Below are positions 4,826 to 42,459 of a DNA stretch of 64,000 nucleotides, piece after piece. Position 1 is the stretch's first letter, and each line of letters starts with the position of its first letter. The notes under the pieces were generated by a model. It searched no databases. It had not been told where the DNA came from and saw only the letters and a program-made list of their open reading frames with translations. A program made the position numbers and the translations under genes. The stretch is from positions 1 through 64,000 of the forward strand of contig JNKJ01000026.1 of assembly GCA_000702025.1 (NCBI GenBank). Direction: 5' to 3'. The stretch comes from Blautia schinkii DSM 10518. GTDB taxonomy: Bacteria; Bacillota; Clostridia; Lachnospirales; Lachnospiraceae.

Positions 4826-4876
4826 GGTCTATAACAAATTAAGGTTTATACTAAATACTTAAGGAGGCAGAAGATA

Positions 4877-9500: not shown

Positions 9501-9556
9501 ATGCAGTATATCCTTTCAGTGGTGATTGTCAATTGGTAAGGTATATATTATAACAC

Positions 9557-9586: not shown

Positions 9587-9605
9587 TAAAAAGATTCCTA
9601 CATAA

Positions 9606-10718: not shown

Positions 10719-10852
10719 GATTCTTCCTCCAAAATGATTTTTAATATAGTTGAGTGTTTCGTTAATGTGCTTTTTTTCATCTGTTAACAGTATAGCGAAA
10801 AGAGCTGGCAAGGGCTAGAGAAGAATCGTACAAAGTTTTTTTGGGTTTCTTG

Positions 10853-11743: not shown

Positions 11744-11820
11744 GAGATTTCTCCTTATGTGACCGTATATGATATCCTGTTTAATCATATATGATATTCT
11801 GTCTATTCCTATATGGCATT

Positions 11821-11994: not shown

Positions 11995-12010
11995 AGTTGA
12001 GCCTCCTTTT

Positions 12011-25724: not shown

Positions 25725-25858
25725 GAAAAAAAATAGTATAATTTGAAGATGAACCCATGATATCATATTCTTGAAATGGATGCTTTCAACATAATACTTC
25801 GTACGATTTTATACATTTGGCTGTTAAGTAATCCGATTTTATGTTTTTGGGAGGAATT

Positions 25859-26752
25859 ATGAAAGGAACAGAAATATTTGATCCGTTTACCTGGTCAGAA
25901 AGTAAAAAGATTATCACTGCTGACCATCACCACATTTCAGGGCTTGCAAATATTACTTATTGTACCATAAGTTCAGCGGATTTTGCTGCACTGCATTATC
26001 ATTCTGACATTATAGAGATTCACTGTATTGTAAAAGGGCAGCGGACTATCCTTGTTTCGGAGGACGGTATTATGAATGAGTATACAGCCCTTGGAAATGA
26101 ACTGATGCTCACTTACCCATTTGAGCTTCATGAAACGGGGAACCATACGAAAAACCGTAATGAATATTATGCAATCCAGATCAGCGTAAGAAAAGACATC
26201 TCTCTTCTCGGATTAAATGAAGAGTACAGTGCGCAGCTTCGCAATGAATTAAAAGCGCTGCCAAATCGTCACCTTAAGGTAGGGCATACGCAGATTTCCA
26301 TGCTGCGTACTGCCTGGAACTTTTTTACGCTGGGACCACAGCCGGACTTTTATACAGGCTCCGCTTATCTGATATGCTTTCTGCAAAACCTGAAATATCT
26401 GGAACCGGCCATAAAAATAAACAAAAAGCATATCTACAATCCCATGCAGAATGTGTTCACGTTTATCAATGAGAATATCGACAAGAAAATCATGCTGCAG
26501 GAGCTTGCTGATATATCCGGTTATTCACTTTCCCATTTTAAGTTTATTTTTAAGGAATCTTTTGGGATTACACCTGCAGAATATATCTCGCTTCAAAAGA
26601 TTAATTATGCAGAAAAGGAGCTTTTGAATTCTGATGTCTCTATTACAGAACTGGCACACAAGCTGAGTTTTTCGTCCAGCAATTATTTTTGCAGTGTGTT
26701 TAAGAAAATTTTGGGAATCACACCATCTGAATATAGAAAAATGAAATGCTGA
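25859..26752 (+). CDS. AraC family transcriptional regulator
   Basis: The 297-residue protein has an N-terminal cupin-like sensing half (HYHSDIIEIHCIVKG) and a C-terminal double HTH of AraC type. LQELADISGYSLSHFKFIF and ITELAHKLSFSSSNYFC are the two recognition units, ending in GITPSEYRKM. GGGAGG precedes the ATG at 25859; an in-frame ATG at 25841 is less well placed. It is divergent from the aldolase-TRAP operon and is likely its regulator. The inducer is unknown. Confidence 0.9.
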   Translation: MKGTEIFDPFTWSESKKIITADHHHISGLANITYCTISSADFAALHYHSDIIEIHCIVKGQRTILVSEDGIMNEYTALGNELMLTYPFELHETGNHTKNRNEYYAIQISVRKDISLLGLNEEYSAQLRNELKALPNRHLKVGHTQISMLRTAWNFFTLGPQPDFYTGSAYLICFLQNLKYLEPAIKINKKHIYNPMQNVFTFINENIDKKIMLQELADISGYSLSHFKFIFKESFGITPAEYISLQKINYAEKELLNSDVSITELAHKLSFSSSNYFCSVFKKILGITPSEYRKMKC

Positions 26753-26839
26753 TTTAAGAAGAGATGCATGGATCTGGCCAATAAAAAGCCTGATGATAAC
26801 CATTATAGTACGATAACGAAATATTGGCTATTTGACGGA

Positions 26840-26871
26840 AACAGCCCGGGAGTGGTTAACTCCAGGGCTGT
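26840..26871. terminator. Hairpin between convergent araC and ABC operon
   Basis: ACAGCCC.GGAGT pairs with ACTCC.GGGCTGT around a short loop, with two mismatches. Long T-runs are absent on both strands, so efficiency may be low. Confidence 0.6.
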
Positions 26872-26925
26872 AGTCTGTAACTAGATACATCTTAAGATTT
26901 TTTTCCATTTCTAATTAACTACGTT

Positions 26926-28602
26926 TTACAATTTTTCTAACCGCCTTATCCCATACAAATAAAATAGCCTGTCAATGAGAAAAGCTGCTGCGCAAAGGCA
27001 GCCGGTAAGCACGGCGGTAAACGTCACAGGACTTACAGAAAGTTCTCTCACCCAATCTCCAAAGACAATTACAAGTACCGAGACTGCAACGATTCCAAAT
27101 AGAAACATTACAAAACCTGCCGTGTTCTTGGACCCCACATCGCCTTCACTTTCCCATACCAGCTTCGGTTTGACAAGTCCATAGATCATTTCGATGTCTA
27201 TCAGAATCAGGAGAAGCAAGACATTAAATATAAAGGTGAAGGGAATACACCACCAAGGAAAGCCTTTCCACAGAACCAGGATTATTTCCGCTATTACCAT
27301 ATAGACTCCGCTGCCTGTGCCGCAGATGATGAAAGCGGCATTTCTTTTTGCTTTTAACTGCAGCTTATAGGATACTGGAAGCTGTTTCATAATGAGAAAG
27401 CTTTGTCCCTCTCTTGAGATTGAGAGCGGTGCCGTGGCATTGAGCGAAGCGGTGAATACGGTAACGGAAAATACTGCACAAAACAATAAGAAAATAAAAT
27501 ATACGGGTGACTGTTCTGTGGTAAAAATGTTCATTATTGTTTGAAAACTGCTTTTGGCCGATGAGGAAAAAAGCTCGGGTATGATGAGAAGTATAGGCCA
27601 GCCCAGTGTGAGGAAAAGACACTGTATATAATAGGCTGGTGTTCTGAAAATAATTCTGAGTTCCTTGCGGGTATAGCTTTTCAAAATATTTGTTCTGCGG
27701 TTTACGTGCGCAAGCTGTCTGGTGGTCATTTTCTTATGGGTGGCGGAGGCTGACTGCATTCCGATAGCGCCGGCCAGATACAGTAATTTTGCCGCTGCCA
27801 GGAAAATGATGATGGATGCTGCTGCCATAAGCAGGCTCCACAGTATAGAAAGTGCGTCTTTTTTCACCATGACATCCACAATGAAAGGGATATCCGGAAA
27901 TACTGCCGTGATTCTGCTGATTGACTGCGCTAAATCGGCAATTGTTTCCTCTACTGCGGATACATTCATACTCTGTACTGCATTTCTGACAATATCATAA
28001 AGCATGTACGCTGCCATCAGTCCCACCGCACCGATGGCGGCCGTGCGTTCTCTGTTTTTGGAACCGCCCAGCAGACGCATAACAAGCATCGATACCACAG
28101 CGGCAGTTGTCAAAGGTACAATTGGGAGTAAAACAACTGCCATCAGAGCACCAATCCAGTAAAAAGCAGGTTCCCTGCCGGCATAACCGTATCCTGCCAG
28201 TACCGGGGCCAGGATGAAGAAGCTGATATAATATTCATAAACAGCAGCAACAATCAGTTTTGCGCCTGTGATCTGCCCTGAGGTAAACGGCATCACAAGG
28301 AGTGATTCCAGATTTGATGAGAGGTAAAATGTATTGATACAGGATACAATCCCGGCGGCAAAGATAAACGCAGAGATTACAAACATGATAAAGCGCAGCA
28401 TAATTCCGTCTCCGTCAATGGAGGCAAAAAGCTCCTGCAGGAGGCTTCCCCCTTGAAAGAGATAATATATCAGCGGAATGATACATAGTAGGAGCAGGAA
28501 GTTTAAAATATTCTTTCCGTTTTTCTTCTTATGGTCATCTGTCGTCCCGGTTCCCAGGCTGCATTTCAGGAGGACAGATGCCAGTTTAATTGTCTTTCCC
28601 AT
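26926..28602 (-). CDS. ABC-2 type permease
   Basis: The 558-residue membrane protein has about a dozen hydrophobic segments and partners with the ATPase gene, whose 3' end it overlaps by 17 bp. The region LRFIMFVISAFIFAAGIV and the YTRKELRIIFR segment near the middle resemble ABC-2 exporters of the bacitracin/antibiotic or cell-envelope type. The substrate is unknown. GGAG lies 10 bp before the ATG. It is the last gene of a four-gene unit. Confidence 0.85.
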   Translation of the reverse strand: MGKTIKLASVLLKCSLGTGTTDDHKKKNGKNILNFLLLLCIIPLIYYLFQGGSLLQELFASIDGDGIMLRFIMFVISAFIFAAGIVSCINTFYLSSNLESLLVMPFTSGQITGAKLIVAAVYEYYISFFILAPVLAGYGYAGREPAFYWIGALMAVVLLPIVPLTTAAVVSMLVMRLLGGSKNRERTAAIGAVGLMAAYMLYDIVRNAVQSMNVSAVEETIADLAQSISRITAVFPDIPFIVDVMVKKDALSILWSLLMAAASIIIFLAAAKLLYLAGAIGMQSASATHKKMTTRQLAHVNRRTNILKSYTRKELRIIFRTPAYYIQCLFLTLGWPILLIIPELFSSSAKSSFQTIMNIFTTEQSPVYFIFLLFCAVFSVTVFTASLNATAPLSISREGQSFLIMKQLPVSYKLQLKAKRNAAFIICGTGSGVYMVIAEIILVLWKGFPWWCIPFTFIFNVLLLLILIDIEMIYGLVKPKLVWESEGDVGSKNTAGFVMFLFGIVAVSVLVIVFGDWVRELSVSPVTFTAVLTGCLCAAAFLIDRLFYLYGIRRLEKL

Positions 28603-29320
28603 CGCCGGTCAGCTCCAGGAAAATATTTTCCAGGGATGTATCCTGTGCAAAGCGTGATTTCAACTCCTCCAGGGTGCCCAGGAACTTGATTTCCCCTTTT
28701 CGGATGATCACGATATTATCGCATAGTTTTTCTGCTACCTCCAGTACATGAGTGGAAAAGAGTACGGATTTTCCACTGGCAGCGTGCTCTTTCATCATTA
28801 GTTTTAATTCATGGGATGCCTGAGGGTCCAGTCCGGTCATCGGTTCATCCAGTATCCAGACGGAAGGATTATGGATCAGTGCCCCCATGACCATTATCTT
28901 TTGGCGCATACCGTGGGAATAGCTGAGAATTTTATCGCCCAGAGATTGTTCAATGCCAAAACGTTTCGAATACGTGGAGATAAAGGCAGAGCGCTCTTCT
29001 GTAGGTACTTCGTAAGCATCCGCCATAAAATTCAAGTATTCAATTCCTTTTAAGCGCAGAAAATTATCCGGGGTATCAGACACAAATCCGAACTGTTTTT
29101 TGGCTTTCAGAGGTTCTTTTACAATGTCTGTTCCGTTGATCAGTATATTGCCTGAATCGGGTTTCAGTACGCCGGTAATCATTTTTAGGGAAGTGGTTTT
29201 ACCGGCACCGTTGGGGCCAATGAAGCCCGTGATTTTTCCGTCAGGCACGGTCCACACAGCATCCCGGACGGCTGTTTTTTCTTTCCCAAAGGTCTTTGTC
29301 ACATGGTTTATTGTGATCAT
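28586..29320 (-). CDS. ABC transporter ATP-binding protein
   Basis: The 244-residue ATPase has Walker A GPNGAGKTT (35-43), a signature YSHGMRQK in which the usual LSGGQ is replaced, and Walker B VWILDEPMTGLD. A signature starting SxG is common in exporter ATPases of the BcrA/YtrB type. It starts 12 bp after the histidine kinase stop, with AAAGGATAAAG as binding site. It should power the adjacent ABC-2 permease. Confidence 0.94.
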   Translation of the reverse strand: MITINHVTKTFGKEKTAVRDAVWTVPDGKITGFIGPNGAGKTTSLKMITGVLKPDSGNILINGTDIVKEPLKAKKQFGFVSDTPDNFLRLKGIEYLNFMADAYEVPTEERSAFISTYSKRFGIEQSLGDKILSYSHGMRQKIMVMGALIHNPSVWILDEPMTGLDPQASHELKLMMKEHAASGKSVLFSTHVLEVAEKLCDNIVIIRKGEIKFLGTLEELKSRFAQDTSLENIFLELTGDGKDN

Positions 29321-29332
29321 CTTTATCCTTTC

Positions 29333-30658
29333 TTAAGTCGTGGGCAGTATGATTTTTACACAAAAGTAATCTTTATCATGACTAATTTGAATGTGCCCTT
29401 TATTTTTATCCACGACATGTCTGACGGAAAGCAGGCCCATACCTGTTCCGTCATTCTTGGTTGATAGGTAAACACCGTCTTTGAATGCGATAGTGTTTCC
29501 ATAGGTGTTTTTGATCATTATTACAAGCTGTTCATGTCTCATCACAGCGTATATGCTTATGAATTTATCAGTTCCGCATTTACTTATACATGCATGGATT
29601 GCGTTTTCTACCAAATTTCCAAAAACTATGCATAAATCTATGTCAGGTATAGCAATATAGCGTGGGAGCTCAGCCTTTATGTTAATTGTGATGCCCTCAG
29701 TTTTTGCAATCTCACTATAGTGTAGGAGAATAATATTTATTACATGGTTTTGGCACACAGGGCATTCTTCCCTGTCCAGATACACAGGCATTAGCCTGGA
29801 TATATATTGATTCAGCTCTTGTGATTTCTGCTGCTTGGCAAGCCCATGAATCGTAAGCAGATGATGGTGCCAGTCATGGCGGATACGCGCTGTCTCGGCG
29901 ATGTTGTCCAGAAGCCGCTGGTATTGCTCCTCTTGCATTTTTAATTGCGCAGTGATAAGTATGGCGTGCTCAACTGCGATTGTTTTTTCATATGTTTCAA
30001 TTAAAAGAAGCAGTGCTATGCAGAAAAATATGTAGGAGCTCAGCGACCATAATATGCAGAACATTAAATCGCGGATTGTCGCATGGACCCGTTCGTCCCA
30101 GTAATCGTTTGTCATTTTTACATAAAACATTAGATAGGTGAGGGCAGGTATCAGCCAAAGATACTTCCAGGCGGCAAACTCTGTATTAAATTCGATAACC
30201 CTTTGATAAAGCTTCACCATTAAAAACCAAATCAATGGCACGTAAATGATCAGAATACCGATAGAAGCGGCAGTATACGCCGGATAAAAGGGAAACTTCA
30301 GGTCTGCCATGATTACAATTAGTTTTGCAATCGTCATGATATTTGCGTAAAAATTCAAGGAAACCAGAACAACAAAAATAATTTCTAAAAAGCTGCATTT
30401 TACTGCTTTAGAAAATATGAATACTGCATAGGCAATCCAGAAAATGATAGCAGGTGCGGCATACTGATCATAACTTGCCCCAGCCGCCAGAAACAGTACT
30501 GTTATGATCACACTGACAATGGTGAGTGTTGAGAAAAGCAGTACTGTTTTCAGACGGCCATAACGGAATCGGCTTTTTAAAGGTACGCATATAAAATATA
30601 AAAAAACTACTGAGCTGAAAATAATTCTCAGAGTAATGCTGATAACATTGGTAATCAT
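29333..30658 (-). CDS. Sensor histidine kinase, GHKL / AgrC-like
   Basis: The 441-residue protein has six or seven N-terminal membrane segments over about 210 residues and then a cytoplasmic kinase. RIRHDWHHHLLTI near residue 262 carries the phosphorylatable histidine. FGNLVENAIHAC is the N box and GTGMGLLSVRHVV the G box of HATPase_c_5 type. It overlaps the SH3b gene by 4 bp and is followed by the ABC genes. No response regulator lies next to it, which is unusual for an AgrC-like kinase. The signal is unknown. Confidence 0.9.
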   Translation of the reverse strand: MITNVISITLRIIFSSVVFLYFICVPLKSRFRYGRLKTVLLFSTLTIVSVIITVLFLAAGASYDQYAAPAIIFWIAYAVFIFSKAVKCSFLEIIFVVLVSLNFYANIMTIAKLIVIMADLKFPFYPAYTAASIGILIIYVPLIWFLMVKLYQRVIEFNTEFAAWKYLWLIPALTYLMFYVKMTNDYWDERVHATIRDLMFCILWSLSSYIFFCIALLLLIETYEKTIAVEHAILITAQLKMQEEQYQRLLDNIAETARIRHDWHHHLLTIHGLAKQQKSQELNQYISRLMPVYLDREECPVCQNHVINIILLHYSEIAKTEGITINIKAELPRYIAIPDIDLCIVFGNLVENAIHACISKCGTDKFISIYAVMRHEQLVIMIKNTYGNTIAFKDGVYLSTKNDGTGMGLLSVRHVVDKNKGHIQISHDKDYFCVKIILPTT

Positions 30659-31476
30659 TCCACTGCAGCGAGATAGTCACTGTAGGAATATGCGATATCG
30701 CCTGTTTTCTCAAATGTGAAGCGATACCAGCCGTTTTCAACCGCACTGACCTTGACACGGTCGCCGATAGCAAGAGTACCGAGTACAGCGCCATTGAGGG
30801 TAGGCTCCTTACGCACGTTTACCACATGTGTGGCAGCCATGGTCTGAGGGAAATCCGGCACAAGATAATCATCATATACATAAACGGTTTCTCCGTTGCG
30901 TTCGCACTGATACCAGCATAGATTATCCAGATTTCCGGTTACATGGATATCATTGCCGGCTTTGAGCACATCCACGATCGTGCCGCCCGGCTGTCTGCGC
31001 ATATTCACGTCTACGGTGGCCTGCATCATGATATCCAGGTTTGTAAACTCGTCGTCATCGTCGTCCTCGTCATCTGAAAACTCATCGGATGCACCGCCTG
31101 CCCGGTTGCCTACATATTCCTCCTCGGGAACAAGAAAGCTTGCATATACATATGCGTTGGAAGCATATCCGGTAATCTGGTACCAGTCACAATCTGTGCG
31201 ACGTGCTGAAACATAATATTTTTCGCCCGGGTTTAATACATCGATAACGTTACCGTTTGGATAATCACGCACATTGCCGGCACCAGTCGCTACATAGTAA
31301 GATCCTATATTGTCTAAGAGCGCGGAATCATCTACCAGATCATCACCGGCCATTTCGCGGTCGTGTTCGATGCCCTCCCGGATATCAGAGGGCATTGCGC
31401 TGACAGGCGCAGTAATTGTAAGGGATGCTGCGATTATGGCTGTTCCTGCTAAAAGCTTTCTGTTTTTCATATTCAT
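30655..31476 (-). CDS. Secreted protein with three SH3b-like domains
   Basis: The 273-residue protein has a signal peptide ending near VSAMP and three SH3b repeats (about residues 60-115, 155-205 and 215-270), each with the pattern NVR..P.G..I..L. An Asp-rich linker (EFSDDEDDDDDEF) separates the first two. SH3b domains bind cell-wall peptides or peptidoglycan in other proteins. AAGGAGA lies 7 bp before the ATG at 31476. The stop overlaps the histidine kinase start by 4 bp, so the two are probably made together, and it may present a wall-derived signal to the kinase (inference). Confidence 0.87.
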   Translation of the reverse strand: MNMKNRKLLAGTAIIAASLTITAPVSAMPSDIREGIEHDREMAGDDLVDDSALLDNIGSYYVATGAGNVRDYPNGNVIDVLNPGEKYYVSARRTDCDWYQITGYASNAYVYASFLVPEEEYVGNRAGGASDEFSDDEDDDDDEFTNLDIMMQATVDVNMRRQPGGTIVDVLKAGNDIHVTGNLDNLCWYQCERNGETVYVYDDYLVPDFPQTMAATHVVNVRKEPTLNGAVLGTLAIGDRVKVSAVENGWYRFTFEKTGDIAYSYSDYLAAVE

Positions 31477-31527
31477 TGTATGTTCTCCTTTATTTCGCAA
31501 AGATATGGTGTGATAAATAATTCCGTA

Positions 31528-33303
31528 TTATATGAGGTGATAGCGTTCCAGAAACTCTTCGATAAATGTGCCCTCGATTTTCTTAAGAGCTCCTTTCTCC
31601 AGCAGTTCGAGAAGAAATGGGAGTTTCAGGTCCGTAAGTTTTTGTTTGTCCATCATAAAGTAAGTTGCCTGCAGCAGGTAGCGGATATCATAACAGGATC
31701 CGAATACCTCAGGTACACCCCGGTCTACATCAAGCAGTGTGTAGACTGCTTCCATTGCAGTACGCACAGAATATTCAGTGGTAAATACAGTGCCGCGCAC
31801 AGTATCAGAGAACTGGCCGATAAATGCGAAGTTCTTGCAGCCTTCCGGTACTACTTTAGGCCGGTCGCCCTGGGCGCGGGGCATAAAGAATGCAGTGATG
31901 TAAGGCATGATGCACGGATTACATCTGGCAGAATGCTCTGAAAGTTCTTCAATCTCCTCTGTAGGAACACCCAGATGGTATAGCCATTCCTGCGTTATTT
32001 CTTTTCCTGTACATTCGCGTAAAGGTTTTTTTATGTAATCTCCGGGTTTGTCCACATATAGACCGTAAATCCATACTACAAGCTGACCGTCCGGCTGCTG
32101 TTTGAAATGAGGCTGGCGGTTTACGGTCCAGCTCATCAGCCAGGAAGAATCTCTCACTGTCACAATTCCGCCTGTAACTACCTTTCCGCTGAAAGGGTCG
32201 CGTTTGCAGATTTTTTCAATATATGGAGGGATTTTTTCATCCAATGTGGTCAGTGTGGCGGATTCCCAGGTACTCTTGCTCACATCTCCGCAGAATTTTT
32301 CAGGACGGCCAAAAGAAGGATCCTGACTGGCGATATTGCGCCAGAGGTCCCAGCACGCGCCCTCGCCGGAAGTGATGTCCAATTTTGGAGCCATGTCATG
32401 AGTGCCGACAACAGCGCTTTCCGTACAGCTTCCGTTTGTGACAAAGACTAGATCATCCTCTGTCAGGCTGATTGTTTTTTCTACGCCGTTCTCTACAATT
32501 ACAAGCTGCTTTGCCAGCTTCACATCGCTGTCCTTTTCAAATATTACATTCGTGACACGTGTATTATATTGGATTACAACGCCATGGCTCTCCAGATATT
32601 TGACCATGGGAAGAATCAATGATTCGTACTGATTATACTTCGTGAATTTCAGGGCAGAAAAATCAGGGAGTCCGCCGATATGATGGATGAAACGCTGTAT
32701 ATACAGTTTCATTTCTAAAGCACTGTGCCATTTTTCAAAGGCAAACATAGTCTGCCAGTAGAGCCAGAAGTTAGACTGGTAAAATTCGTCATCAAACACA
32801 TCATCAATAGTCTTGTCATAGAGCAGTTCATCCTTAGTCATGAAGAGGTTGATGATCTCCATAGATGCTTTTTCGGAAAGTGTAAATTTACCGTCTGTAT
32901 GTCCATCCTCTCCCCGGTTTATGGTGGCGCGCATCAGAGAATAATTGGGATCCTTTTTGTTCAGCCAGTAAAATTCATCCAGTACGGAAGCATCCTCGAT
33001 TTCTAAGGACGGAATAGAGCGGAACAAATCCCACAGACATTCAAAATGGTTCTCCATTTCCCGTCCGCCGCGGATGACAAATCCTTTTTCCTCATTATAT
33101 ATACCGTCACAGGCTCCGCCGGGAAGAGCGCTTTCCTCAAGGATATGGATTCGCTCGCCCTTCATCTGGCCGTCACGGATCAAAAAACATGCGGCAGAGA
33201 GAGAGGCCAGCCCGGCGCCTGTCAGATACGCTGATTTACGGTCGACATTTTCCGGCTTGACCGGACGTGCAAAAGCTTCGTAATTACCGCTGGAATAGTA
33301 CAT
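31528..33303 (-). CDS. ohyA: Oleate hydratase
   Basis: The 591-residue flavoprotein (PF06100) adds water to the cis-9 double bond of unsaturated fatty acids to give 10-hydroxy acids. The FAD motif [10 protein letters not shown] is near residues 29-38. [15 protein letters not shown] carries the conserved glutamate, and [17 protein letters not shown] and [18 protein letters not shown] are typical of the family. No signal peptide is present. GGGGG lies 9 bp before the ATG. It follows a small membrane protein gene by 43 bp, forming a unit preceded by the operator motif at 33734-33763. Confidence 0.96.
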
Positions 33304-33346
33304 AGAAAATACCCCCTTGTTTTTGTGCCGTTAAACTAGATTCGGC

Positions 33347-33652
33347 TTATTTTTTTACCAGTGTCTTTTTAATAATAACTATATTGGAAATGATTGAGAT
33401 AATTACGGCTGCCAGACATGCCAGGGTAATCCAGCCGCTGATTTTTTCATTAAAGAAAAGACGCAGTGTGTAGAGAAACGCAAGGCCGAAGGCGCCCATT
33501 AAAATGGTTGTAATACCTGCCGGCCTTGAATATTTCTTTAAAGATTCCTCCGTGTATTTTCCAGCGCTGACAAATAATGGTTTATTTGTAATGAGCATGA
33601 TAACCCCGCAAAGCGTGATCAATCCTAAAAAAATGTAATCTACATTTGGCAT
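33347..33652 (-). CDS. Small three-segment membrane protein
   Basis: The 101-residue protein has three hydrophobic segments (about residues 6-24, 46-66 and 74-94) and basic ends. I recognise no family with certainty. It is the first gene of the oleate hydratase unit. It is preceded by the 29-bp operator-like motif at 33734-33763. A short GGGGGG stretch before the ATG may serve as binding site. It may affect membrane fatty-acid state (inference only). Confidence 0.8.
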   Translation of the reverse strand: MPNVDYIFLGLITLCGVIMLITNKPLFVSAGKYTEESLKKYSRPAGITTILMGAFGLAFLYTLRLFFNEKISGWITLACLAAVIISIISNIVIIKKTLVKK

Positions 33653-33733
33653 TTAGAACCCCCCTTTTCTCTGCTCGTTGAGCAGTAAAATTGTATTTTT
33701 TGAAATCTATTTCATTTTATAATATTCCGTCAA

Positions 33734-33763
33734 AAAATACATCGGTAATGTGGGGGTGCTTTT
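33734..33763 (-). promoter_or_regulatory. Operator-like motif, site A
   Basis: On the minus strand the motif reads AAAGCACCCCCACAT, then four variable bases, then GATGTATTTT. Site B at 36411-36439 matches at 25 of 29 positions, and all mismatches fall in the central four bases. A TATAAA-type -10 follows 12 bp downstream. The gene start is 81 bp downstream of the motif. Confidence 0.8.
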
Positions 33764-33775
33764 CGCAAAAGACTG

Positions 33776-36280
33776 TCAGAGTTCGTCTAAAATATGCAAG
33801 TGGTGTATTTTTTTGATTGCTTCATCCATACAGCCTGCGTCCAGCTTTCTATAAATCAGCTCTATGTGGGAACGGACAGTTGAAAACTGAATTCCCAATT
33901 CTTCGGCAATCTTGCGGTAGCTGTATCCTTTGCACATGAGTTCTGCCACCTTTTTTTGTCTTTGGGTAAATTTGATTTCAGGTTCCTTTCTGTTACTTAC
34001 GACTGGACTTTCTAAGCCGGCCTGCTCCACAACGCCTATATAAAGCTTTCTGACAAAGGTGGAAGATAGTGCGCCTTGATAATCGCTGCGCATAGTCCAG
34101 TTTTTCAAGCCGGATAAAATATTTTTGAGATTAGTGCCATGGTTAAGGAAACACTGTTCATAACCAATAGTCTGGGCGGTATATACAGCTTCGACAAGAT
34201 AAGGCAATGCCTGTTTATTACTGCCGCGTTTCTTTTTGGAATAAGATACAGCCAGGAGTATATTTGCTTCAATGATATCAGTGGTCCTGTTTAGGGCTTT
34301 GCACATTTCGAGAAGCTTTTCCAGCAGGATGATGGAATGGCTGTAATTTCCTAAGGCTATGTGTGCCTTCGCTGTGGTGAAATGCGCATAAAGCCTGAAA
34401 AAATCCATGTGGCCATATATTTCTGTACCTCTGGTTTCTAGCCATTTTCCGGCAGCTGCGGTATTGCCGGATTCAATTTCGTTTGCGGAGATGACCGCAT
34501 CAAAATTAGACTGCAGATAAAATGCCTTATCCGCGTCAATCATTTTTTGTATATCCTGCTGAATCAGGGTTTCCTGTTCCGGCTGCTTCATGGCGTGAGT
34601 AACTGCCAGGAGTAAGGTCATGGCACAAAATTTTGATTCCGGCGCAAAGCTGTTCTTGAGTTCGGCAATTGCTGAGAGTGCGAATTTCTGTGCGGACAAC
34701 AAATTGCCTTGTTCGTAATAAAGTCCTCCTTTAATACAGTTTATGAGCATGGGACATTCATCCCCCAGAAGGGGGCCCAGAACCTTTCCAAGTGAATCTA
34801 TGCTTTCATCTGCATTTCCGATAAGCAATTCTGCAAAATCCCGGTAGGACTTGTGGTAAAAAGGCAAGTATAGTGTAGCTGAACCGCGTACCCCTTGAAA
34901 TTTCACAGGCACTTTGGTATTGAACGCTGCTTTCAAAATGTCATTCAGAGTGAGACGAAAATCCATGGAATAAAGAAAAAATATATTGTGCGCCAGTTCA
35001 GGATTCTGTTCTGCAATCCGGGGATAGTTTTGGTAGTAGTGATCTGCGTAAACTTTAAAATCTTCAATCCGCCCTTCGTTCCGTGCAGTAAAGGCCATCA
35101 TATAATACAAATGCGGGTATCTGTCTAAAATCTCTTCATCAAGGGAACTGCGGACTGCATTCATTACCTGTTCTGCATCAAATCCGGCACGGTCCATTTC
35201 CTCCAGGAGATCAAAGCAGCAGGCTATCTGACCGTAGTCCTTGATTTGGGAAAATCTGTCTACGGCATGGTAAAAGTCCTTTTGCTCCAGATACCATTCC
35301 CCTGCTTTACGTATTTGACTAATGCGGTACTCTTCAGGCATTTCCAGAAAGATTTTCATGAGAAATTCCCGGAACAGGCGGTGAAAGCGGTAGACGCCCT
35401 CACGATGCTTGGATAAGAAGGCGCCCTTTCCCAGTAATTGCTCCAGAAGCCCGGCGCTGTCGGTTTCCCCGGTCAATGCATTGCAGATGGGTTCTGTCAA
35501 TTCCTCCTCGATACAGGTTCCGAGCATAAACTGTCTGGAACGCTCATCCCACATTTCCCATACCTGGGTTTTCAGGAAGCTTTCCAGCCAATCCTTGGGC
35601 ATGTTTTCTGTGGGGATATGGTTTTCGGAAAGGAGCAGTGCATTAATCCCTATAGGCCAGCCCTCCGTAAATAGGAGGATTTCCTCTATCTGCCTGCCGG
35701 TTATGGCAATGTTCCTGTTTTTGTATAATGCATAAATTTCCTTGGTATCAAAAAGTAGTTCTTCCTGGGGAATAAAGCATAGTTCGTTTTTTAGAAACAG
35801 CCCGCTGAATGCCTCCGGAAGGGAACCTCTGCTCAACAGACAAAGCTGAAAGCCGGAAGGCAGGCGCATAAGAAAATCTTTTAGGATTTTTAGCGCATAA
35901 GAATCTGTCACATAGTGAAGATCATCAATGACCAGGCTGGCTTCTTCGTCTTTGGGCAGAGCCGCCGCCGCCCGCATTAGAAATTCAACAGGGGCTCTAT
36001 GGAAATCAGGATGTTTTGTGAAGGAAGTAATATAGTTCTGATTTTCTATAGAAAGCTCCTCAAGGCCGTCTTTAAGTTTACAGCACAGATCTGCGGCTGT
36101 ATTATCATATTCATCCAAGGTTATCATTGCATTGGGCTGCTTCCTGCTATCCAGCCACTGTCCGGCAAAGACTGTTTTTCCATAACCTGCAGGCGCCTGT
36201 ATGTATAGGATGCGGCAGTTTGTCATTGTACTTGCCAGTTTCATTAATCGGCGGCGGTTTATAGTATTTGATGATGTCAC
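33776..36280 (-). CDS. MalT-like LuxR (LAL) transcriptional activator (GTG start)
   Basis: The 834-residue protein belongs to the large ATP-binding LuxR regulators. Walker A APAGYGKT is near residues 29-36 and the Walker B region is EASLVIDDLH. A long helical TPR-like middle follows. The C-terminal LuxR HTH reads FTQRQKKVAELMCKGYSYR and IAEELGIQFSTVRSHI. The start is GTG at 36278-36280 with GGAGG six bases upstream. Such proteins respond to inducing ligands. It lies between the oleate hydratase unit and a membrane-protein gene, both preceded by the same motif, so it is the likely activator of both. Confidence 0.93.
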   Translation of the reverse strand: MTSSNTINRRRLMKLASTMTNCRILYIQAPAGYGKTVFAGQWLDSRKQPNAMITLDEYDNTAADLCCKLKDGLEELSIENQNYITSFTKHPDFHRAPVEFLMRAAAALPKDEEASLVIDDLHYVTDSYALKILKDFLMRLPSGFQLCLLSRGSLPEAFSGLFLKNELCFIPQEELLFDTKEIYALYKNRNIAITGRQIEEILLFTEGWPIGINALLLSENHIPTENMPKDWLESFLKTQVWEMWDERSRQFMLGTCIEEELTEPICNALTGETDSAGLLEQLLGKGAFLSKHREGVYRFHRLFREFLMKIFLEMPEEYRISQIRKAGEWYLEQKDFYHAVDRFSQIKDYGQIACCFDLLEEMDRAGFDAEQVMNAVRSSLDEEILDRYPHLYYMMAFTARNEGRIEDFKVYADHYYQNYPRIAEQNPELAHNIFFLYSMDFRLTLNDILKAAFNTKVPVKFQGVRGSATLYLPFYHKSYRDFAELLIGNADESIDSLGKVLGPLLGDECPMLINCIKGGLYYEQGNLLSAQKFALSAIAELKNSFAPESKFCAMTLLLAVTHAMKQPEQETLIQQDIQKMIDADKAFYLQSNFDAVISANEIESGNTAAAGKWLETRGTEIYGHMDFFRLYAHFTTAKAHIALGNYSHSIILLEKLLEMCKALNRTTDIIEANILLAVSYSKKKRGSNKQALPYLVEAVYTAQTIGYEQCFLNHGTNLKNILSGLKNWTMRSDYQGALSSTFVRKLYIGVVEQAGLESPVVSNRKEPEIKFTQRQKKVAELMCKGYSYRKIAEELGIQFSTVRSHIELIYRKLDAGCMDEAIKKIHHLHILDEL

Positions 36281-36410
36281 GGTGTACCTCCATGTGCTGC
36301 ATAATTATCTTAAACTTGATAAATTTTGTTTGTAATTATATTAACATTCTCAAGTGATACAGTCAAATTTCAATGTGCGCATTTTGCAAAAAAATTTCGA
36401 AATTCTCGAC

Positions 36411-36439
36411 AAAGCACCCCCACATGGTGGATGTATTTT
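36411..36439 (+). promoter_or_regulatory. Operator-like motif, site B
   Basis: The motif reads AAAGCACCCCCACAT, then GGTG, then GATGTATTTT, in the same orientation relative to its gene as site A. A -10-like TATTAG/ATTAGA stands 11-12 bp after it. The gene at 36502 begins 62 bp downstream. The rest of 36281-36501 has no gene. Confidence 0.8.
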
Positions 36440-36501
36440 GGACTAAATTGTATTAGAATGTCGACATTAAAACATATTTTACATATTGAGGAGGGCAAAA
36501 A

Positions 36502-36915
36502 ATGCCAGGTAAAAGTTATATTAAATTCACAAGTGTGTTATTGATTCTGTCAGCTATAATCGCAATTATTGTATATCCTGTGGCAGGTTTGCTGTTTGGG
36601 AAGGCAACGATTGACACTGGAGAAAAGATGGGCTGGATATTTGTTGTAATCTGTCTGGTTTATACACTTGCTGCTATACTTCAGTTCGTAGCAGGAATCA
36701 AAGGTATGAAGGGATGCAACATAAAAGAAGAAGCCGCTGATCTCATGAAGTGGGGAAAAATCGTTTTGGTAATCGCTTTGATTGCCGGAATCGTAAACTT
36801 CATAGGCTCTGTTATGAATAATGAGTCGATTCTGACAAGTATCATTGGTATTGTACTGGGACTTATTTTTCCGGCACTTTATATCTACGGCGCATCTTTA
36901 AATGAGAAGGCCTGA
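36502..36915 (+). CDS. Four-segment membrane protein
   Basis: The 137-residue protein has four hydrophobic segments (about residues 9-29, 45-66, 88-104 and 110-131). I recognise no family. A GGAGGG site stands before the ATG and the operator-like motif at 36411-36439 lies upstream, so it is probably co-regulated with oleate hydratase. A strong terminator follows, so it is a single-gene unit. Confidence 0.85.
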   Translation: MPGKSYIKFTSVLLILSAIIAIIVYPVAGLLFGKATIDTGEKMGWIFVVICLVYTLAAILQFVAGIKGMKGCNIKEEAADLMKWGKIVLVIALIAGIVNFIGSVMNNESILTSIIGIVLGLIFPALYIYGASLNEKA

Positions 36916-36945
36916 GATTAACTGAATATTATTCCGACGGGACGG

Positions 36946-37011
36946 CCGCGGAGAAGCTGCTGCATTGATGATTGCAAAGATCACAGGCAGGAGGTTCTCC
37001 GCGGTTTTTTT
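36946..37011 (+). terminator. Terminator after the membrane protein gene
   Basis: CCGCGGAGAA (36946-36955) pairs perfectly with TTCTCCGCGG (36995-37004), followed by seven Ts. Confidence 0.9.
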
Positions 37012-37151
37012 GTGAGTATGATACAAGAGGTTTGGGTGATTATGTTATTATGCAGAGTATACTTTTTATTTTATTCGAGAACCGATTGCATTCTCAGAGT
37101 ATCTAATTAGTGTAAAATCAATCGGCCGATAGAAAAAATGGAGGTTTCAAT

Positions 37152-37634
37152 ATGACAAGAGATAAGTTTATAGCGGAGGTCCGGGAATCGGAGGCTATGC
37201 TTTATCATGTGTCGAAATCCATCCTAAAGAACGATGCAGACTGCGCGGATGCAGTGCAGGAGGCCCTGCTCAAGGGCTATGAAAAGCTGCACACGCTGAA
37301 AGAGGATGCGTTTTTCAGGACCTGGATGACCAGGATACTCATAAATGAATGCTACAAAATCTGCAAAAAGAATAAAAATATTGTACCCTATGAGGAATAT
37401 ATACAGAATGCAAAGCTCTGGGAGGAGGACCGCTATAGTCACCTTTACCAGGCAATCCTGGAGCTTCCCGGTGAGCTGCGTGTTCTTGTGACGCTTTACT
37501 ATCTGGAGGGCTTCAGCCAAAAGGAAATCAGCGAAATATTGAATATCCGGGAAGGTACGATCAAAAGCAGACTGTCAAGAGCACGGAGAATGTTAAGGGA
37601 AGAATTATCAGATGAGGAGGAATTATTATGTTAG
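37152..37634 (+). CDS. ECF-type RNA polymerase sigma factor
   Basis: The 160-residue protein has sigma-70 region 2 (KNDADCADAVQEALLKGYEKLHTL and FRTWMTRILINECYKICKK parts) and region 4 (GFSQKEISEILNIREGTIKSR, near residues 121-141) with no region 3. It directs RNA polymerase to stress or envelope-type promoters. GGAGG precedes the ATG. The end overlaps the next gene by 7 bp, so sigma factor and its partner are translated together. Confidence 0.94.
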   Translation: MTRDKFIAEVRESEAMLYHVSKSILKNDADCADAVQEALLKGYEKLHTLKEDAFFRTWMTRILINECYKICKKNKNIVPYEEYIQNAKLWEEDRYSHLYQAILELPGELRVLVTLYYLEGFSQKEISEILNIREGTIKSRLSRARRMLREELSDEEELLC

Positions 37635-38713
37635 ATAACAGAGATTGGGCAAATGCAGCACCCGAGGTTCCCCAGGAATTTCACGAGCGATTTGAAAAAA
37701 CATTACGCAGTATTGAGACTGCCAAACGGCCAAGACGAAAAATGAGCTTTCGTATTCTGGCTGTGGCAGCAGCGCTCTGCGCTCTGTGTACTGCTACGGT
37801 GGCGGCTAATGAAATTTTTAACTGGAGTGACGCGCTGGTTGAGCGTTTTAAGCCTTCCCAGGAGCAGCAGCAGAAACTGGCGGACAGTGGGAATATACAG
37901 GGTATCGGCCAGTCTGTGACCCAGAATGGGGTGACAGTTACCCTTGACCAGGCAGTTATGGATAAGGAACGTTTGTACATGCTTTTTGCTGTCGAGACTC
38001 CTGAAGCCATTAAAATGGATCATACCGTAGGATTTGACAGCGGGTTGAATGTTACACTTGACGGAAAGGATATCCTGGACGCTGCAGAAAACGCCAGCGG
38101 AGGCGGCAACGGCGGATTTGTGGATGAGAAAATGCTTGGCGGCCAGTCAGAGCACAAACGGTTCTATGAGATTAACTATAATATCATGGATACAACGGAT
38201 GAATTTGATTTCAGCAACAGAACCGTGGGAGTTTTGTTGGAGAATCTAGTGTTAGGCGCTGATAAAGCTATGCCTGGTGAAGTAGTGGCAGAGGGTAAAT
38301 GGGAATTTACCTGGAATACAGGTGAAATCCAAAAAGGAAAATTGTTTGAGATTAATGAGACTTATGACTTGGGCGGATATGATATCCTTGTGAAAAATGT
38401 GGAGATTACCCCGTTAAGCTATACCGTAAGTGCGGATTTGAGTGATGCTCTGAAGGTAGAAGAGGATGAACGGAATACGTTCGAGTACAACGGAGATGAC
38501 CCTGGAATGGAGATTGACACCAGGATTGGTGTAAGCGCTGTGGAATATGCGGATGGCACGAAGATTGAAACTGGGTACTTCGGCGGAGGTACGGATGTGG
38601 ATGAGGAGGAACAGTCCTATATTGTGACAGAGGGCTTTAATAATGTGGTTGATGTGGATAAGATAGAAAGCATTTATATTATGCAGGGTGAAGTTAAAAT
38701 TCCGGTTAAATAA
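37628..38713 (+). CDS. DUF4179 membrane anti-sigma-like protein
   Basis: The 361-residue protein has a cytoplasmic N-terminus, one membrane segment (about residues 41-60) and a large extracellular part with the DUF4179 fold (PF13786), GVTVTLDQAVMDKERLYMLF being typical. Such proteins pair with ECF sigma factors in Clostridia and likely hold the sigma factor until an outside signal arrives (inference). The overlap of 7 bp with the sigma gene supports pairing. No signal is known. Confidence 0.88.
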   Translation: MLDNRDWANAAPEVPQEFHERFEKTLRSIETAKRPRRKMSFRILAVAAALCALCTATVAANEIFNWSDALVERFKPSQEQQQKLADSGNIQGIGQSVTQNGVTVTLDQAVMDKERLYMLFAVETPEAIKMDHTVGFDSGLNVTLDGKDILDAAENASGGGNGGFVDEKMLGGQSEHKRFYEINYNIMDTTDEFDFSNRTVGVLLENLVLGADKAMPGEVVAEGKWEFTWNTGEIQKGKLFEINETYDLGGYDILVKNVEITPLSYTVSADLSDALKVEEDERNTFEYNGDDPGMEIDTRIGVSAVEYADGTKIETGYFGGGTDVDEEEQSYIVTEGFNNVVDVDKIESIYIMQGEVKIPVK

Positions 38714-38729
38714 GGCTATGGATTTGTCG

Positions 38730-38770
38730 AAAGCGGCGAGCTTGGGTTTTCTACTAAGCTTGCCGCTTGC
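38730..38770 (+). terminator. Hairpin after the DUF4179 gene
   Basis: AAGCGGC..GCTT pairs with AAGC..GCCGCTT around a loop of about 13 nt. No T-run follows, so it may be a weak or factor-dependent terminator. Confidence 0.55.
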
Positions 38771-38860
38771 TGCAACTGCCAACAATCCAATGACAAACGA
38801 TTTTTGTTGTGTTATTATGGGTATAAATAAGTAGATAAGCAGAAGGGAGAGAAGCCCTAT

Positions 38861-40567
38861 ATGACTACAAAAAAGAAATTGCCGATTGGTATTGAGGATT
38901 TTGAGAAAATCAGGAAAAATGATTTCTACTATATTGATAAAACGAGCCTTATTGCAGAACTGCTCTCTAACTGGGGAGAGGTGAATTTGTTTACGCGCCC
39001 CAGGCGATTCGGGAAATCGCTTAGCATGAGTATGTTGAAGCATTTTCTGGAGATTGGGTGTGAGGAAGAGCTGTTCGACGGATTGAAGATATTGCGGGAA
39101 AAAGAATTATGCAAAAAATACATGGGAAAATTTCCGGTGATTTCTATAACACTAAAGGGCGTGGATGGTCTTTCGTATGAAGCGGCGGCAGCGGCAATGC
39201 GCAGTGTGGTGGGGACAGAAGCGGAACGATTTTCTTTTTTGGTGGAAAGTGAACGCCTGACAGCTAATGAGAAAGAGAAATACCGCGCAATTATCCGCTT
39301 GGAAAACGGTGTTTATACAATGGACGATGTGGTACTGGTATCGGCTTTAAAAACATTATCCATGCTTATCTCAAAACACTATAGTGAAAAAACAATCATT
39401 CTTATAGATGAATACGATGTACCGCTTGATAAGGCCTTTCAGTGGGGATACTATGAAGAAATGGTGTCGCTCATTCGGGGCTTTCTCGGCAACGCCCTGA
39501 AAACAAATGAGTATTTGCAGTTTGCTGTTCTTACGGGATGCCTCCGTATCAGTAAGGAGAGCATTTTTACGGGTCTGAATAATATGAATGTCATGTCCAT
39601 CACAGATGAATATTTTGATGAGTATTTTGGTTTTACGGATGCTGAGGTCCAGGAGTTATTAGACTATTATGGTGTGGAACATGCCTTTAAGACAATGAAG
39701 CAGTGGTATGATGGTTATCGCTTTGGCAATACTTCGATTTACTGTCCTTGGGATGTTCTCAAATACTGCCAGGCACTTACGAAAAACCGAAATGCTGTCC
39801 CGGAAAATTACTGGGCCAATACCAGTGGGAATGCTATGGTACGGCGTTTTATTGATAAGGCAAATCAGCAGACAAGAAATGAAATAGAGAAATTGATTGC
39901 GGGTGAATCAATAACAAAAGAAATCAATATGGAATTAACTTATAACGAACTGGATTCGACAATAGAACATTTGTGGAGTGTTTTGTTTACGACAGGTTAT
40001 CTGACACAACAAGGGAGAGAAGGACAGAAAGGGTATACGCTGACCATACCTAATAGAGAAATCAGGAAGCTTTTTATCTCACAGATTAAAGAATGGTTTA
40101 AAGATACCACTCATGCGAATGCATCCCAGATTAAAAGCTTTTGTGCCGCATTTCCCAATGCGGATGCAGATTTAATAGAAAAAATGCTGAATGATTATTT
40201 ATGGGGAACGATTAGTATCCGGGACACTGCTGTGCAGAATGACAGGAAAGAGAACTTCTATCATGGGATGCTGCTTGGATTATTGCAGTATCAGGATAAC
40301 TGGCTTATAAAATCTAATGCGGAATCAGGGGTTGGATTTTCGGATATTCTAATTGAAACACCAGAGCGTACAGGGATTGTAATAGAAGTAAAATATGCAC
40401 ATGATGGGAATCTTGAAAAGTGCTGCAGGGAGGCAGAAGAGCAGATTGAGGGAATGGAGTATACTGCGCGTCTTGTGGAAGATGGGATGAAAACAATTGT
40501 CAGGTATGGGGTGGCCTTTTATAAAAAGCGTTGTAAAGTTACTTGCTGTGGAAGCAGGACAAGATGA
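38861..40567 (+). CDS. AAA-ATPase-like protein with PD-(D/E)XK nuclease domain
   Basis: The 568-residue protein joins an AAA-ATPase-like domain (PF09820) to a C-terminal DUF1703 nuclease domain (PF08011). TRPRRFGKSLS (45-55) is the Walker A-type motif, ILIDEYDVPLD (about 184-194) the Walker B, and GFSDI..IVIEVKYA (about 490-512) the D-(D/E)xK catalytic residues. Members are frequent in gut Firmicutes and Bacteroidetes, often in multiple copies and in variable regions. The role may be defence or a genetic-element function; it is not established. GGGAGAG lies upstream of the ATG. It stands alone between two unrelated units. Confidence 0.9.
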   Translation: MTTKKKLPIGIEDFEKIRKNDFYYIDKTSLIAELLSNWGEVNLFTRPRRFGKSLSMSMLKHFLEIGCEEELFDGLKILREKELCKKYMGKFPVISITLKGVDGLSYEAAAAAMRSVVGTEAERFSFLVESERLTANEKEKYRAIIRLENGVYTMDDVVLVSALKTLSMLISKHYSEKTIILIDEYDVPLDKAFQWGYYEEMVSLIRGFLGNALKTNEYLQFAVLTGCLRISKESIFTGLNNMNVMSITDEYFDEYFGFTDAEVQELLDYYGVEHAFKTMKQWYDGYRFGNTSIYCPWDVLKYCQALTKNRNAVPENYWANTSGNAMVRRFIDKANQQTRNEIEKLIAGESITKEINMELTYNELDSTIEHLWSVLFTTGYLTQQGREGQKGYTLTIPNREIRKLFISQIKEWFKDTTHANASQIKSFCAAFPNADADLIEKMLNDYLWGTISIRDTAVQNDRKENFYHGMLLGLLQYQDNWLIKSNAESGVGFSDILIETPERTGIVIEVKYAHDGNLEKCCREAEEQIEGMEYTARLVEDGMKTIVRYGVAFYKKRCKVTCCGSRTR

Positions 40568-40653
40568 ATGCAGAAATCCTGTTTCTGTAAAGCATAGATG
40601 CCAATAGGCTCATTTTACTACACTAAGTACGGATTTTGATTAAAGGTACAACA

Positions 40654-42459
40654 ATGAAACGAGTAAAAAATTGGTTTTTGAATTTAAGCATCCAGAGAAA
40701 ACTTCTATACTGTGCTTTGGCGATTACATTGGTGGTGCTGCTTTCCGCGAGTATCTCTCTCTATGTTGCAGCATCGCGTATAGTGATGGCACAGACCGAA
40801 AAGCAGTCGGCAGGTGTGATTAAGGAGCTGTCGGTAAATCTGGATCATTATTTTGAAATGGTGGAAAATTCCTTTGACTATATTGCCAATAACAATACCG
40901 TGCAGGAGGAATTAAAATCAGATACCCCCTATTGTTCAGACGGAGAGCAGTATTACAGCTACTTTTCCCGGGCGGGTCAGATACGCAGGCTTCTGCTTCA
41001 AGGCTATACCAGTGTATATATGAATGATATTGAGCTATACGGTTATAATGGAGCCGACCATCTTCTGTATAACGGAGAGCAGATTCTGCTCAGTGACAAG
41101 GAGATTCTGCACGAAAAGGCAGAGGAGGCCAATGGCAGATGTGTCTACTATAATGCTTCAGAGGGAACCGGGCTGATTTATATTGCAAAACAGATTAAGG
41201 ATTCTCTTACCATGGAGCCCTTGGGAATTCTTCAGGCTTCCATTAAAGTGAGCTATCTCAAAAAGATGACGAAATCGGCCCAAAGTTCTTTGATGGCCGA
41301 GTTGTTTTTACTTGATGATAACAATAAAATAATATTGAACAGCATGGAATACAGAGCAGATAAGCTGGCTGACCAGTACGTGGGGACAAGCGGAAGTTTC
41401 GTGACAAAAATTAATAGCCAGACATATAATTGTGTTTACCAGAAAAGTTCCGATACAGGTTTTCTCTTGGTAGGTATGATTCCCATGAGCTTTTTGCAGA
41501 GTACGGCCCGGGAATTGCAGAAAACGGCGGTAATCCTTCTGGCTATAAGTGTAATCCTCTGCGTGGTGCTGACATCTGTTTTGGCGAAGGGAATTGCCGG
41601 GCCCATTGAACGCACCAGCAATGCTATGAAAAAATTCGCCGGGGGAGACTTTACCGTACGTCTTCCTGAGGGGCGTACAGATGAAATCGGAGCCATGAAT
41701 TCTGTGTTTAACCATACCATAGAAGAGATAGAGACTCTTCTTAAGAAGGTCGTTGAGATGGAGACGGTGAATAAGGATATTGAATTCCAGGCACTTCAGG
41801 CTCAGATCAATCCCCATTTTCTTTACAATGTTCTGGACACCATTAATTGGATGGCGAGGAAAAAGGGCGAGGAGAATATCTGCCATATGGTCACGGCTGT
41901 CAGCAGTCTGATGCGGGCCAGTATCAGTAATAAAAAGAGTATTGTAAGCATCCGTGAGGAAATGAAATATGTACAGGATTATCTTTATATCCAGGAGACG
42001 AGATATGGGGATAAATTTACATCATATCTGGAGGTAGATGAGGAGCTTAACGATATACCTATCCCAAAGATGACAGTACAGACATTGGTGGAGAACGCGG
42101 TGGTCCACGGCGTGGAAAATGCTACGTGGGACTGCTTTTTGTCTGTGACCGGAGAGCTTGTGGGAGAGACAGCGGTGATCAAGGTAAAGGATGACGGTGT
42201 AGGGATTCCGGCTGACAGGCTTGCGTCTTTGCTGAATCCGGAGACAGAGCAAAAGGAGAGCAGGGAGAAGGATGGGCGTACACATACAAGCCTTGGTGTT
42301 TATGCAGTGAGGAAGAGGCTTGATTACATATATGACGGAGAGGCCCGGATGAGTATTACCTCAGAGGAAGGGAAAGGAACTGAGGTTATATTAGAAATAC
42401 CATTAAAGGAAGTCAGGAGAGTTGTCATTGATGGAACTTCGGGTAATGATATTAGATGA
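40654..42459 (+). CDS. YesM-type sensor histidine kinase
   Basis: The 601-residue kinase has a membrane segment (about residues 12-36), an extracytoplasmic sensing region, a second segment near 280-302, a HAMP region and a His_kinase/HATPase core. QINPHFLYNVLDTINW near residue 388 carries the phosphorylatable histidine, VQTLVENAVVHG the N box and DDGVGIP the G1 box. I chose the ATG at 40654, preceded by AAAGGT, over a TTG in frame at 40636. It overlaps the response regulator gene by 29 bp. It likely senses a carbohydrate handled by the ABC transporter that follows. Confidence 0.92.
   Translation: MKRVKNWFLNLSIQRKLLYCALAITLVVLLSASISLYVAASRIVMAQTEKQSAGVIKELSVNLDHYFEMVENSFDYIANNNTVQEELKSDTPYCSDGEQYYSYFSRAGQIRRLLLQGYTSVYMNDIELYGYNGADHLLYNGEQILLSDKEILHEKAEEANGRCVYYNASEGTGLIYIAKQIKDSLTMEPLGILQASIKVSYLKKMTKSAQSSLMAELFLLDDNNKIILNSMEYRADKLADQYVGTSGSFVTKINSQTYNCVYQKSSDTGFLLVGMIPMSFLQSTARELQKTAVILLAISVILCVVLTSVLAKGIAGPIERTSNAMKKFAGGDFTVRLPEGRTDEIGAMNSVFNHTIEEIETLLKKVVEMETVNKDIEFQALQAQINPHFLYNVLDTINWMARKKGEENICHMVTAVSSLMRASISNKKSIVSIREEMKYVQDYLYIQETRYGDKFTSYLEVDEELNDIPIPKMTVQTLVENAVVHGVENATWDCFLSVTGELVGETAVIKVKDDGVGIPADRLASLLNPETEQKESREKDGRTHTSLGVYAVRKRLDYIYDGEARMSITSEEGKGTEVILEIPLKEVRRVVIDGTSGNDIR

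Follow-up and report, generated by a model that had tools for sequence, protein, structure and literature searches.

Two repeated 29-bp sites flanking a MalT-like regulator gene of Blautia schinkii are candidate operators of this regulator

Results

Two near-identical sites with a common promoter layout

The subject of this study is a pair of repeated sites in a 64,000-nt stretch of the Blautia schinkii DSM 10518 genome (contig JNKJ01000026.1, positions 1 to 64,000, hereafter the window), together with the gene lying between them, which codes for an 834-residue regulator of the MalT-like STAND/LuxR type. The sequence AAAGCACCCCCACATNNNNGATGTATTTT is present without mismatch at 33734-33762 on the minus strand and at 36411-36439 on the plus strand. 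The two copies are identical at 25/25 specified positions, and only the central 4 nt differ (TACC versus GGTG). Shuffling the dinucleotides of the window 100 times produced no site with up to 3 mismatches, which excludes chance, and in the unshuffled sequence the next-best place after the two copies reaches 18/25. A preliminary description of this DNA had already noticed that the sites agree except for the central four bases; its coordinates were correct for the plus-strand copy and one base too long for the minus-strand copy (33734-33763). The elements concerned are the following.

33714..33719, minus strand: -10-like hexamer TAAAAT, 14 nt past operator copy 1, putative promoter element; the same hexamer and spacing are found in G059, another genome of the genus
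33734..33762, minus strand: candidate operator copy 1, AAAGCACCCCCACAT-TACC-GATGTATTTT, 13 nt past the stop codon of the regulator gene and upstream of the gene for a 101-residue protein; core kept in G059
33776..36280, minus strand: 834-residue MalT-like STAND regulator, with P-loop NTPase, MalT-type tetratricopeptide repeat (TPR) region and C-terminal LuxR/GerE helix-turn-helix (HTH); GTG start
36411..36439, plus strand: candidate operator copy 2, AAAGCACCCCCACAT-GGTG-GATGTATTTT, in the divergent region between the regulator gene and the gene for a 137-residue protein
36454..36459, plus strand: -10-like hexamer TAGAAT, 14 nt past operator copy 2, putative promoter element

Both sites have the same orientation relative to their downstream gene, at a distance of 81 nt from the ATG of the 101-residue protein (33652) for copy 1, and of 62 nt from the ATG of the 137-residue protein (36502) for copy 2. 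In the three promoters available, two from the window and one from G059, the hexamers TAAAAT, TAGAAT and TAAAAT each start exactly 14 nt past the end of the site, in agreement with the like orientation and matching spacing proposed in the preliminary description. The -35 slots of these promoters read ATGTAT, ATGTAT and ATGCAT, that is 2/6 matches to TTGACA. Such a poor -35 slot at the proper spacing from a common -10 would fit promoters that need an activator. The site contains the motif ACAT-N5-ATGT and, taking transcription to start 7 nt past the -10, its centre would fall near -38. MalT sits near -38 at its own promoters.

A MalT-like regulator that differs from MalT proper

The regulator scores 58.6 bits with PF17874 TPR_MalT (cut-off 45) and 36.7 bits with PF00196 GerE (cut-off 23.5, residues 771-816). 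The Walker A motif APAGYGKT is present both in this protein and in its G059 orthologue, and residues A28, G31, G33, K34, D118 and D119 are invariant across 19 aligned homologues. When the profile of these 19 homologues was compared to known structures, it matched MalT 8bob over positions 7-349 (E 2.6e-51) and 1hz4 (E 1.2e-12). An AlphaFold2 model was obtained with a mean predicted local distance difference test score (pLDDT) of 84.6 and a predicted template modelling score (pTM) of 0.76, and Foldseek searches with it returned 8bob, 6mfv and 1hz4 (the latter with E 2e-5). The model alignment left out L035 and L095 (internal stop), the truncated L102, G170:C214 and L155-L161. By its domains and its predicted fold the protein is of the MalT-like STAND/LuxR type, though not MalT proper, as the cut-off of the NCBIfam MalT equivalog NF003420 was not reached (216 versus 537 bits).

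Its recognition helix is GIQFSTVRSHIELIYRKL, and that of the G059 orthologue GVQFSTVRSHIELIYRKL, one edge residue apart. The helix G[I/V]QFSTVRSHIELIYRKL occurs in none of the 27 distant homologues with a readable HTH, a comparison that includes L092, L094, L098 and L155-L161, the incomplete L102 not being counted.

Site and close regulator occur together

We then asked how the site and the regulator are distributed among genomes. In the B. schinkii genome itself (6.68 Mb), CACCCCCAC is found at 23 places, and the full site at 2 of these. The exact pattern CCCCCACATNNNNGATGNATT is present in 1/392 genomes of an order-wide sample, which is the B. schinkii genome, and was not found in the other 391; G059 lies outside this sample. 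The preliminary description had named occurrence at many unrelated sites as an observation that would speak against a specific operator; what we found is two exact cores in the genome and none in these 391. Allowing up to 1 mismatch, a search of 64 same-genus genomes gave matches in 3/64, exact for B. schinkii and G059 and with one mismatch for G043. This last match, inside an open frame of another gene in a genome that has no close regulator, was taken as chance.

Regulator homologues with E <=1e-40 were found in 6 of 145 relatives, which include 63 other genomes of the genus; within the genus, only B. schinkii and G059 have one (71%), and a contig search for the orthologue gave one close locus, 71% identical, which is that of G059. 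Close regulator and exact core are thus found together in 2/64 genus genomes, and neither of them was found in the other 62/64.

Distant homologues of the regulator (25-39%) were detected in 16/392 order-sample and 7/397 family-sample genomes, own genome not counted; all 16 of the former are among the genomes of the order sample in which the exact site was not found. Their neighbourhoods are diverse, comprising chemoreceptors, lipoproteins or Nif11-type leader genes, so that no family-wide target emerges.

The locus of the relative G059

In G059, the site lies at L033:2215 on the minus strand, upstream of a gene for an SH3 protein (80% to window 30655-31500), itself followed by a kinase gene (64%). 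The upstream flanks are dissimilar to the window, with genes for a MocR-type regulator and an aminotransferase between the site and the regulator gene, the MocR-type gene being inserted there. The 23-nt core, for its part, fits 23/23 pattern positions. The genes for oleate hydratase and for the 101- and 137-residue proteins are absent from this locus that keeps the site. Elsewhere in G059, no homologue of the 137-residue protein was found (E <=1e-4; 2/145 genomes have one, B. schinkii and G051), nor of the 101-residue protein (E <=1e-3; 3/145 genomes, B. schinkii, G049 and G089); G059 is given as 90% complete, so that these absences outside the locus are not certain. The unit common to the window and G059 is the regulator, the operator, the SH3 protein and the kinase, and the oleate hydratase and 101-residue/ATP-binding cassette (ABC) genes look like lineage-specific additions.

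A parallel case in another family of the order

Repeated 26-mers in non-coding DNA were searched for in 28 homologue loci, including window 26000-42000 and the G059 stretch. They were found in 9/28 loci, of which the window, L090 and L091 were retained. The others were set aside by eye: L034, L095 and L101 for repeats that seem to be dispersed ones, L037 and L160 for near-by repeats, and L093 because its repeat is the start-codon region of related genes.

L090 and L091 belong to G161, a genome of another family of the same order, which encodes two homologues of the regulator (37%) with a common recognition motif, KQTTLRSRI. Upstream of genes near both homologues are five copies of AAAATATACCMTCWTGASG (0, 0, 1, 1 and 2 mismatches), each 23 or 24 nt ahead of TGCTA with a -10-like continuation.

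L090: 9939 (plus strand), 14290 (plus strand)
L091: 6711 (minus strand), 10008 (plus strand), 1770 (minus strand)

Genes behind these sites include those for a DUF218 protein and lipoproteins. In a control of 400 kb of G161 (20 stretches of 20 kb), 2 matches with 3 mismatches and none with fewer were found; 20 mononucleotide shuffles per locus gave means of 0.15 and 0.1, and one 3-mismatch match is also present in L156. As the consensus was drawn from the sites it finds, 0-2 mismatch matches are expected by construction, and the evidence lies in the spacing and in the absence elsewhere. By analogy, G161 supports the notion that such regulators own local repeated operators.

Genes downstream of the two sites

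The genes that would be controlled from the two sites are listed below.

36502..36915, plus strand: 137-residue hydrophobic protein, candidate target of operator copy 2; no Pfam family above cut-off (DUF6768, E=0.017)
33347..33652, minus strand: 101-residue hydrophobic protein, first gene past operator copy 1; weak DUF3784 match under cut-off (E=0.0074)
31528..33303, minus strand: oleate hydratase, second copy in the genome; RGGREM loop with E82, and Y201, present
30655..31500, minus strand: SH3b-domain protein, hydrophobic at its N-terminus and likely exported; the 80% orthologue of G059 is directly past the operator
29333..30658, minus strand: membrane sensor kinase with GHKL ATPase domain; the 64% orthologue of G059 is behind the SH3 gene
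28586..29320, minus strand: ABC transporter ATP-binding protein
26926..28602, minus strand: ABC permease, PF16949 ABC_tran_2, last gene of the likely operon

Past copy 1, the six minus-strand genes of this list follow each other in the order given, from that of the 101-residue protein to that of the ABC permease, and the gaps between them measure 43, 27, -4, 12 and -17 nt; for the SH3 gene, an ATG 24 nt further in has a better ribosome-binding site. A scan of the minus strand from 33733 to 28586 returned no terminator-like site, its overall yield being no better than that of shuffles (10 versus 8.8). These genes likely form one operon, read as a single transcript. The preliminary description had proposed a compact regulon of oleate hydratase and two membrane proteins. 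The hydratase does belong to the likely operon, as the second of six genes behind that of the 101-residue protein, and the two membrane proteins keep their place; the list was incomplete, as the SH3 protein, the kinase, the ABC ATPase and the permease are also in the operon.

In G089, from another genus, the 101-residue homologue (48%) is encoded directly upstream of the ABC ATPase (82%) and permease (46%), so that this gene and the two ABC genes constitute a separate unit, split here by the oleate hydratase gene and the SH3-kinase pair. No site was found in the region upstream of the G089 gene (best 17/25 in that stretch).

Some features of the neighbourhood may be added. No response regulator gene adjoins that of the GHKL kinase (29333-30658) in the likely operon. 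Paralogues of the SH3 protein (about 40%) are encoded at L151 6758-7579 (minus strand) in the B. schinkii genome and at L152 6542-7348 (minus strand) in G054, both with neither an adjoining kinase gene nor an operator (best 16/25). On the other side, the gene of the 137-residue protein is directly followed by an extracytoplasmic function (ECF) sigma factor gene and a DUF4179 (anti-sigma-like) gene (window 37152-38713), and then by a gene for a protein with AAA-ATPase_like and PDDEXK_9 domains (38861-40567).

Two copies of oleate hydratase

The hydratase of the window scores 923.8 bits with the equivalog NF010584 (cut-off 567) and has residues R81, E82 and Y201. In Staphylococcus aureus OhyA, mutants E82A and Y201F are described as being respectively >100-fold and about 10-fold less active (PMC7948970). 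The other hydratase of the genome, 76% identical to the window copy, is encoded beside a TetR-type gene (PF14278, PF00440). The single hydratase of G059 is found on another contig with the same TetR-side order, and is 95.8% identical to the TetR-side copy of B. schinkii. A TetR-type gene is present beside 3/6 of the hydratase loci laid out outside the window (L135, L136 and L137 among L135-L140), the family scan of this gene being that of L135 only. In the hydratase tree, the window copy groups with two TetR-side copies (95/85). Because its branch is long, we limit our claim to its being an old duplicate or an acquired copy.

Discussion

In our view, the MalT-like regulator encoded between the two sites probably uses them as its operators. 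The link between regulator and site is drawn because core and close regulator co-occur in 2/64 genus genomes, because the recognition helices of both carriers are nearly the same, and because of the G161 parallel. Together with the conservation in G059 and the constant promoter geometry, these points sustain the earlier proposal of a shared operator, of which both copies would be instances and which belongs with this regulator. The regulator probably binds these sites and activates transcription, activation being suggested by the geometry and by analogy with the family. MalT is described as multimerising upon inducer binding and then binding its boxes cooperatively (PMC4381067, PMC10427625). 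Here, the ligand-bound regulator would take ATP, multimerise and bind each 29-bp site; the bound site would cover the place of the missing -35, and RNA polymerase would be recruited to the -10 at a fixed spacing. The regulator would in this way turn on the gene of the 137-residue membrane protein on one side, and on the other side the six-gene operon, which runs from the 101-residue membrane protein to the ABC ATPase and permease by way of oleate hydratase, the exported SH3 protein and the GHKL kinase.

Several points weigh against this interpretation. Each promoter has one composite site here, versus several MalT boxes at the MalT promoters studied (malPp800 is described with four). Conservation rests on one pair of loci, as a single close relative was found. 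In this relative, site 1 is kept, and neither a second site nor a gene for the 137-residue protein is present upstream of the regulator gene, so that the half of the system made of site 2 and this protein is without conservation in G059; of the loss in relatives keeping the gene order, which the preliminary description named as refuting its proposal, one half is thus observed, as the disappearance of site 2 goes with that of the gene it would control. A weak sigma-70-like pair, TTGACG-18-TAGATT (9/12), lies directly past operator copy 1 (33733-33704), and given this pair the promoter may work without an activator; pairs of this grade number 18 in the region, versus 22.2 in shuffles. Finally, weaker sites may exist elsewhere, as matches to the core CCCCCACATNNNNGATGNATTNT with up to 3 mismatches exceed a control with the core read backwards: 19 places versus 7 in B. 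schinkii (two with 0, one with 2 and sixteen with 3 mismatches), and 18 versus 6 in G059 (one with 0 and seventeen with 3).

Other explanations were weighed. The preliminary description saw in the locus a fatty-acid or membrane-stress regulon. In such a regulon, an unsaturated fatty acid would be bound by the TPR region and hydrated by the hydratase, and the ABC transporter, together with the small membrane proteins, would export it or protect the envelope. A complete oleate hydratase (E82, Y201) does lie behind the site, along with an ABC transporter and two proteins of hydrophobic character, and in lactobacilli oleic acid is described as co-inducing ohyA, the efflux gene farE and a tetR gene (PMC11429459). 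However, the G059 locus keeps regulator and site without the hydratase gene, its single copy being elsewhere, and without those of the 101- and 137-residue proteins; the site there precedes the SH3 protein and GHKL kinase genes. Moreover, no site was found at the TetR-side hydratase loci L135 and L136, among them the other copy of B. schinkii (best 16/25, which is background). Because the common core is made of regulator, operator, SH3 protein and kinase, we rate a fatty-acid signal as one option, and the regulon so defined as unlikely. An even smaller chance is given to operators of another factor. Genes for the ECF sigma factor (37152-37634), an AraC-type regulator (25841-26752) and the GHKL kinase, which may have a partner, are all near the sites, but no ECF or AraC gene was found in the 13-kb G059 stretch around the site (by BLAST to window proteins and by eye), and the regulator common to both carriers is the close orthologue of the MalT-like protein, whose family members show the same layout in G161. 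In addition, the site is unlike a two-part ECF promoter.

The same low probability is assigned to a repressor function, by which the regulator or another protein would block RNA polymerase at both promoters. It would fit the overlap of the site with the -35 region and the TTGACG/TAGATT pair past operator copy 1. Nevertheless, the 2/6 match of the -35 slot in all three promoters fits the need for an activator, and MalT is described as an activator (PMC4381067, PMC10427625). As for the sites being what remains of a promoter segment duplicated recently, with no selection acting on them, two copies do lie within one 3-kb locus, but their flanks and central four bases differ, and G059 has retained the core in spite of a regulator that has diverged to 71%; this we regard as very improbable.

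The regulator resembles Escherichia coli MalT, the activator of the maltose regulon and a member of the LAL-type LuxR regulators, by its P-loop NTPase, its superhelical/TPR sensor, its LuxR-type HTH, its fold and profile matches and its activator-like promoter layout. It differs by falling below the equivalog cut-off, by a single 29-bp composite site per promoter and by targets that are not maltodextrin genes. The placing of the hydratase with membrane/export proteins recalls the FarR/TetR-FarE-OhyA response described in lactobacilli and S. aureus (PMC11429459). In contrast, the window regulator is STAND/LuxR and not TetR, and the transporter is ABC_tran_2 and not FarE; it is the other hydratase copy of B. 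schinkii that is TetR-linked as in those systems. In Staphylococcus, ohyA is described as being controlled by SrrAB, that is, as would be the case here, by a regulator outside fatty acid metabolism (PMC11669549). SrrAB differs from the window regulator, which adjoins the operon and is of another family, in being a two-component system without linkage to ohyA. A literature search with many journals outside its coverage returned no paper in which oleate hydratase is under LuxR-type control, and nothing relevant on regulators of the MalT-like LuxR type in gut Firmicutes or Lachnospiraceae.

If our interpretation is correct, the operator of a MalT-like STAND regulator from this gut-type clostridial group becomes available as a sequence, the two promoters constitute a ready reporter pair for finding the ligand of the regulator, and one of two oleate hydratase copies has shifted under different control. 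More tentatively, with a likelihood well below that of the operator assignment itself, clostridial MalT-like STAND regulators might be private local switches, each (or each small group sharing a recognition helix) with an operator of its own that occurs nowhere but beside it, always at a fixed distance from the -10, and with the genes behind it freely exchanged. Here, a regulator-operator-kinase core would have gained an ABC module and a duplicate of oleate hydratase, and a fatty-acid enzyme would thereby have passed from the TetR side to control by a STAND activator. As the case of G161 suggests, operators in this family may be readable from repeated sites beside the genes, and linkable to recognition helices.

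A further locus with a distant homologue, L037, is of separate interest. The homologue is encoded there between six paralogous small genes and genes for a C39-peptidase ABC exporter and an HlyD-type protein (8671-12223, plus strand; 1612-5429, minus strand). Two of the six small genes were scanned and both have a Nif11 domain, so that a locus for a leader-peptide natural product may be under the control of this related STAND regulator.

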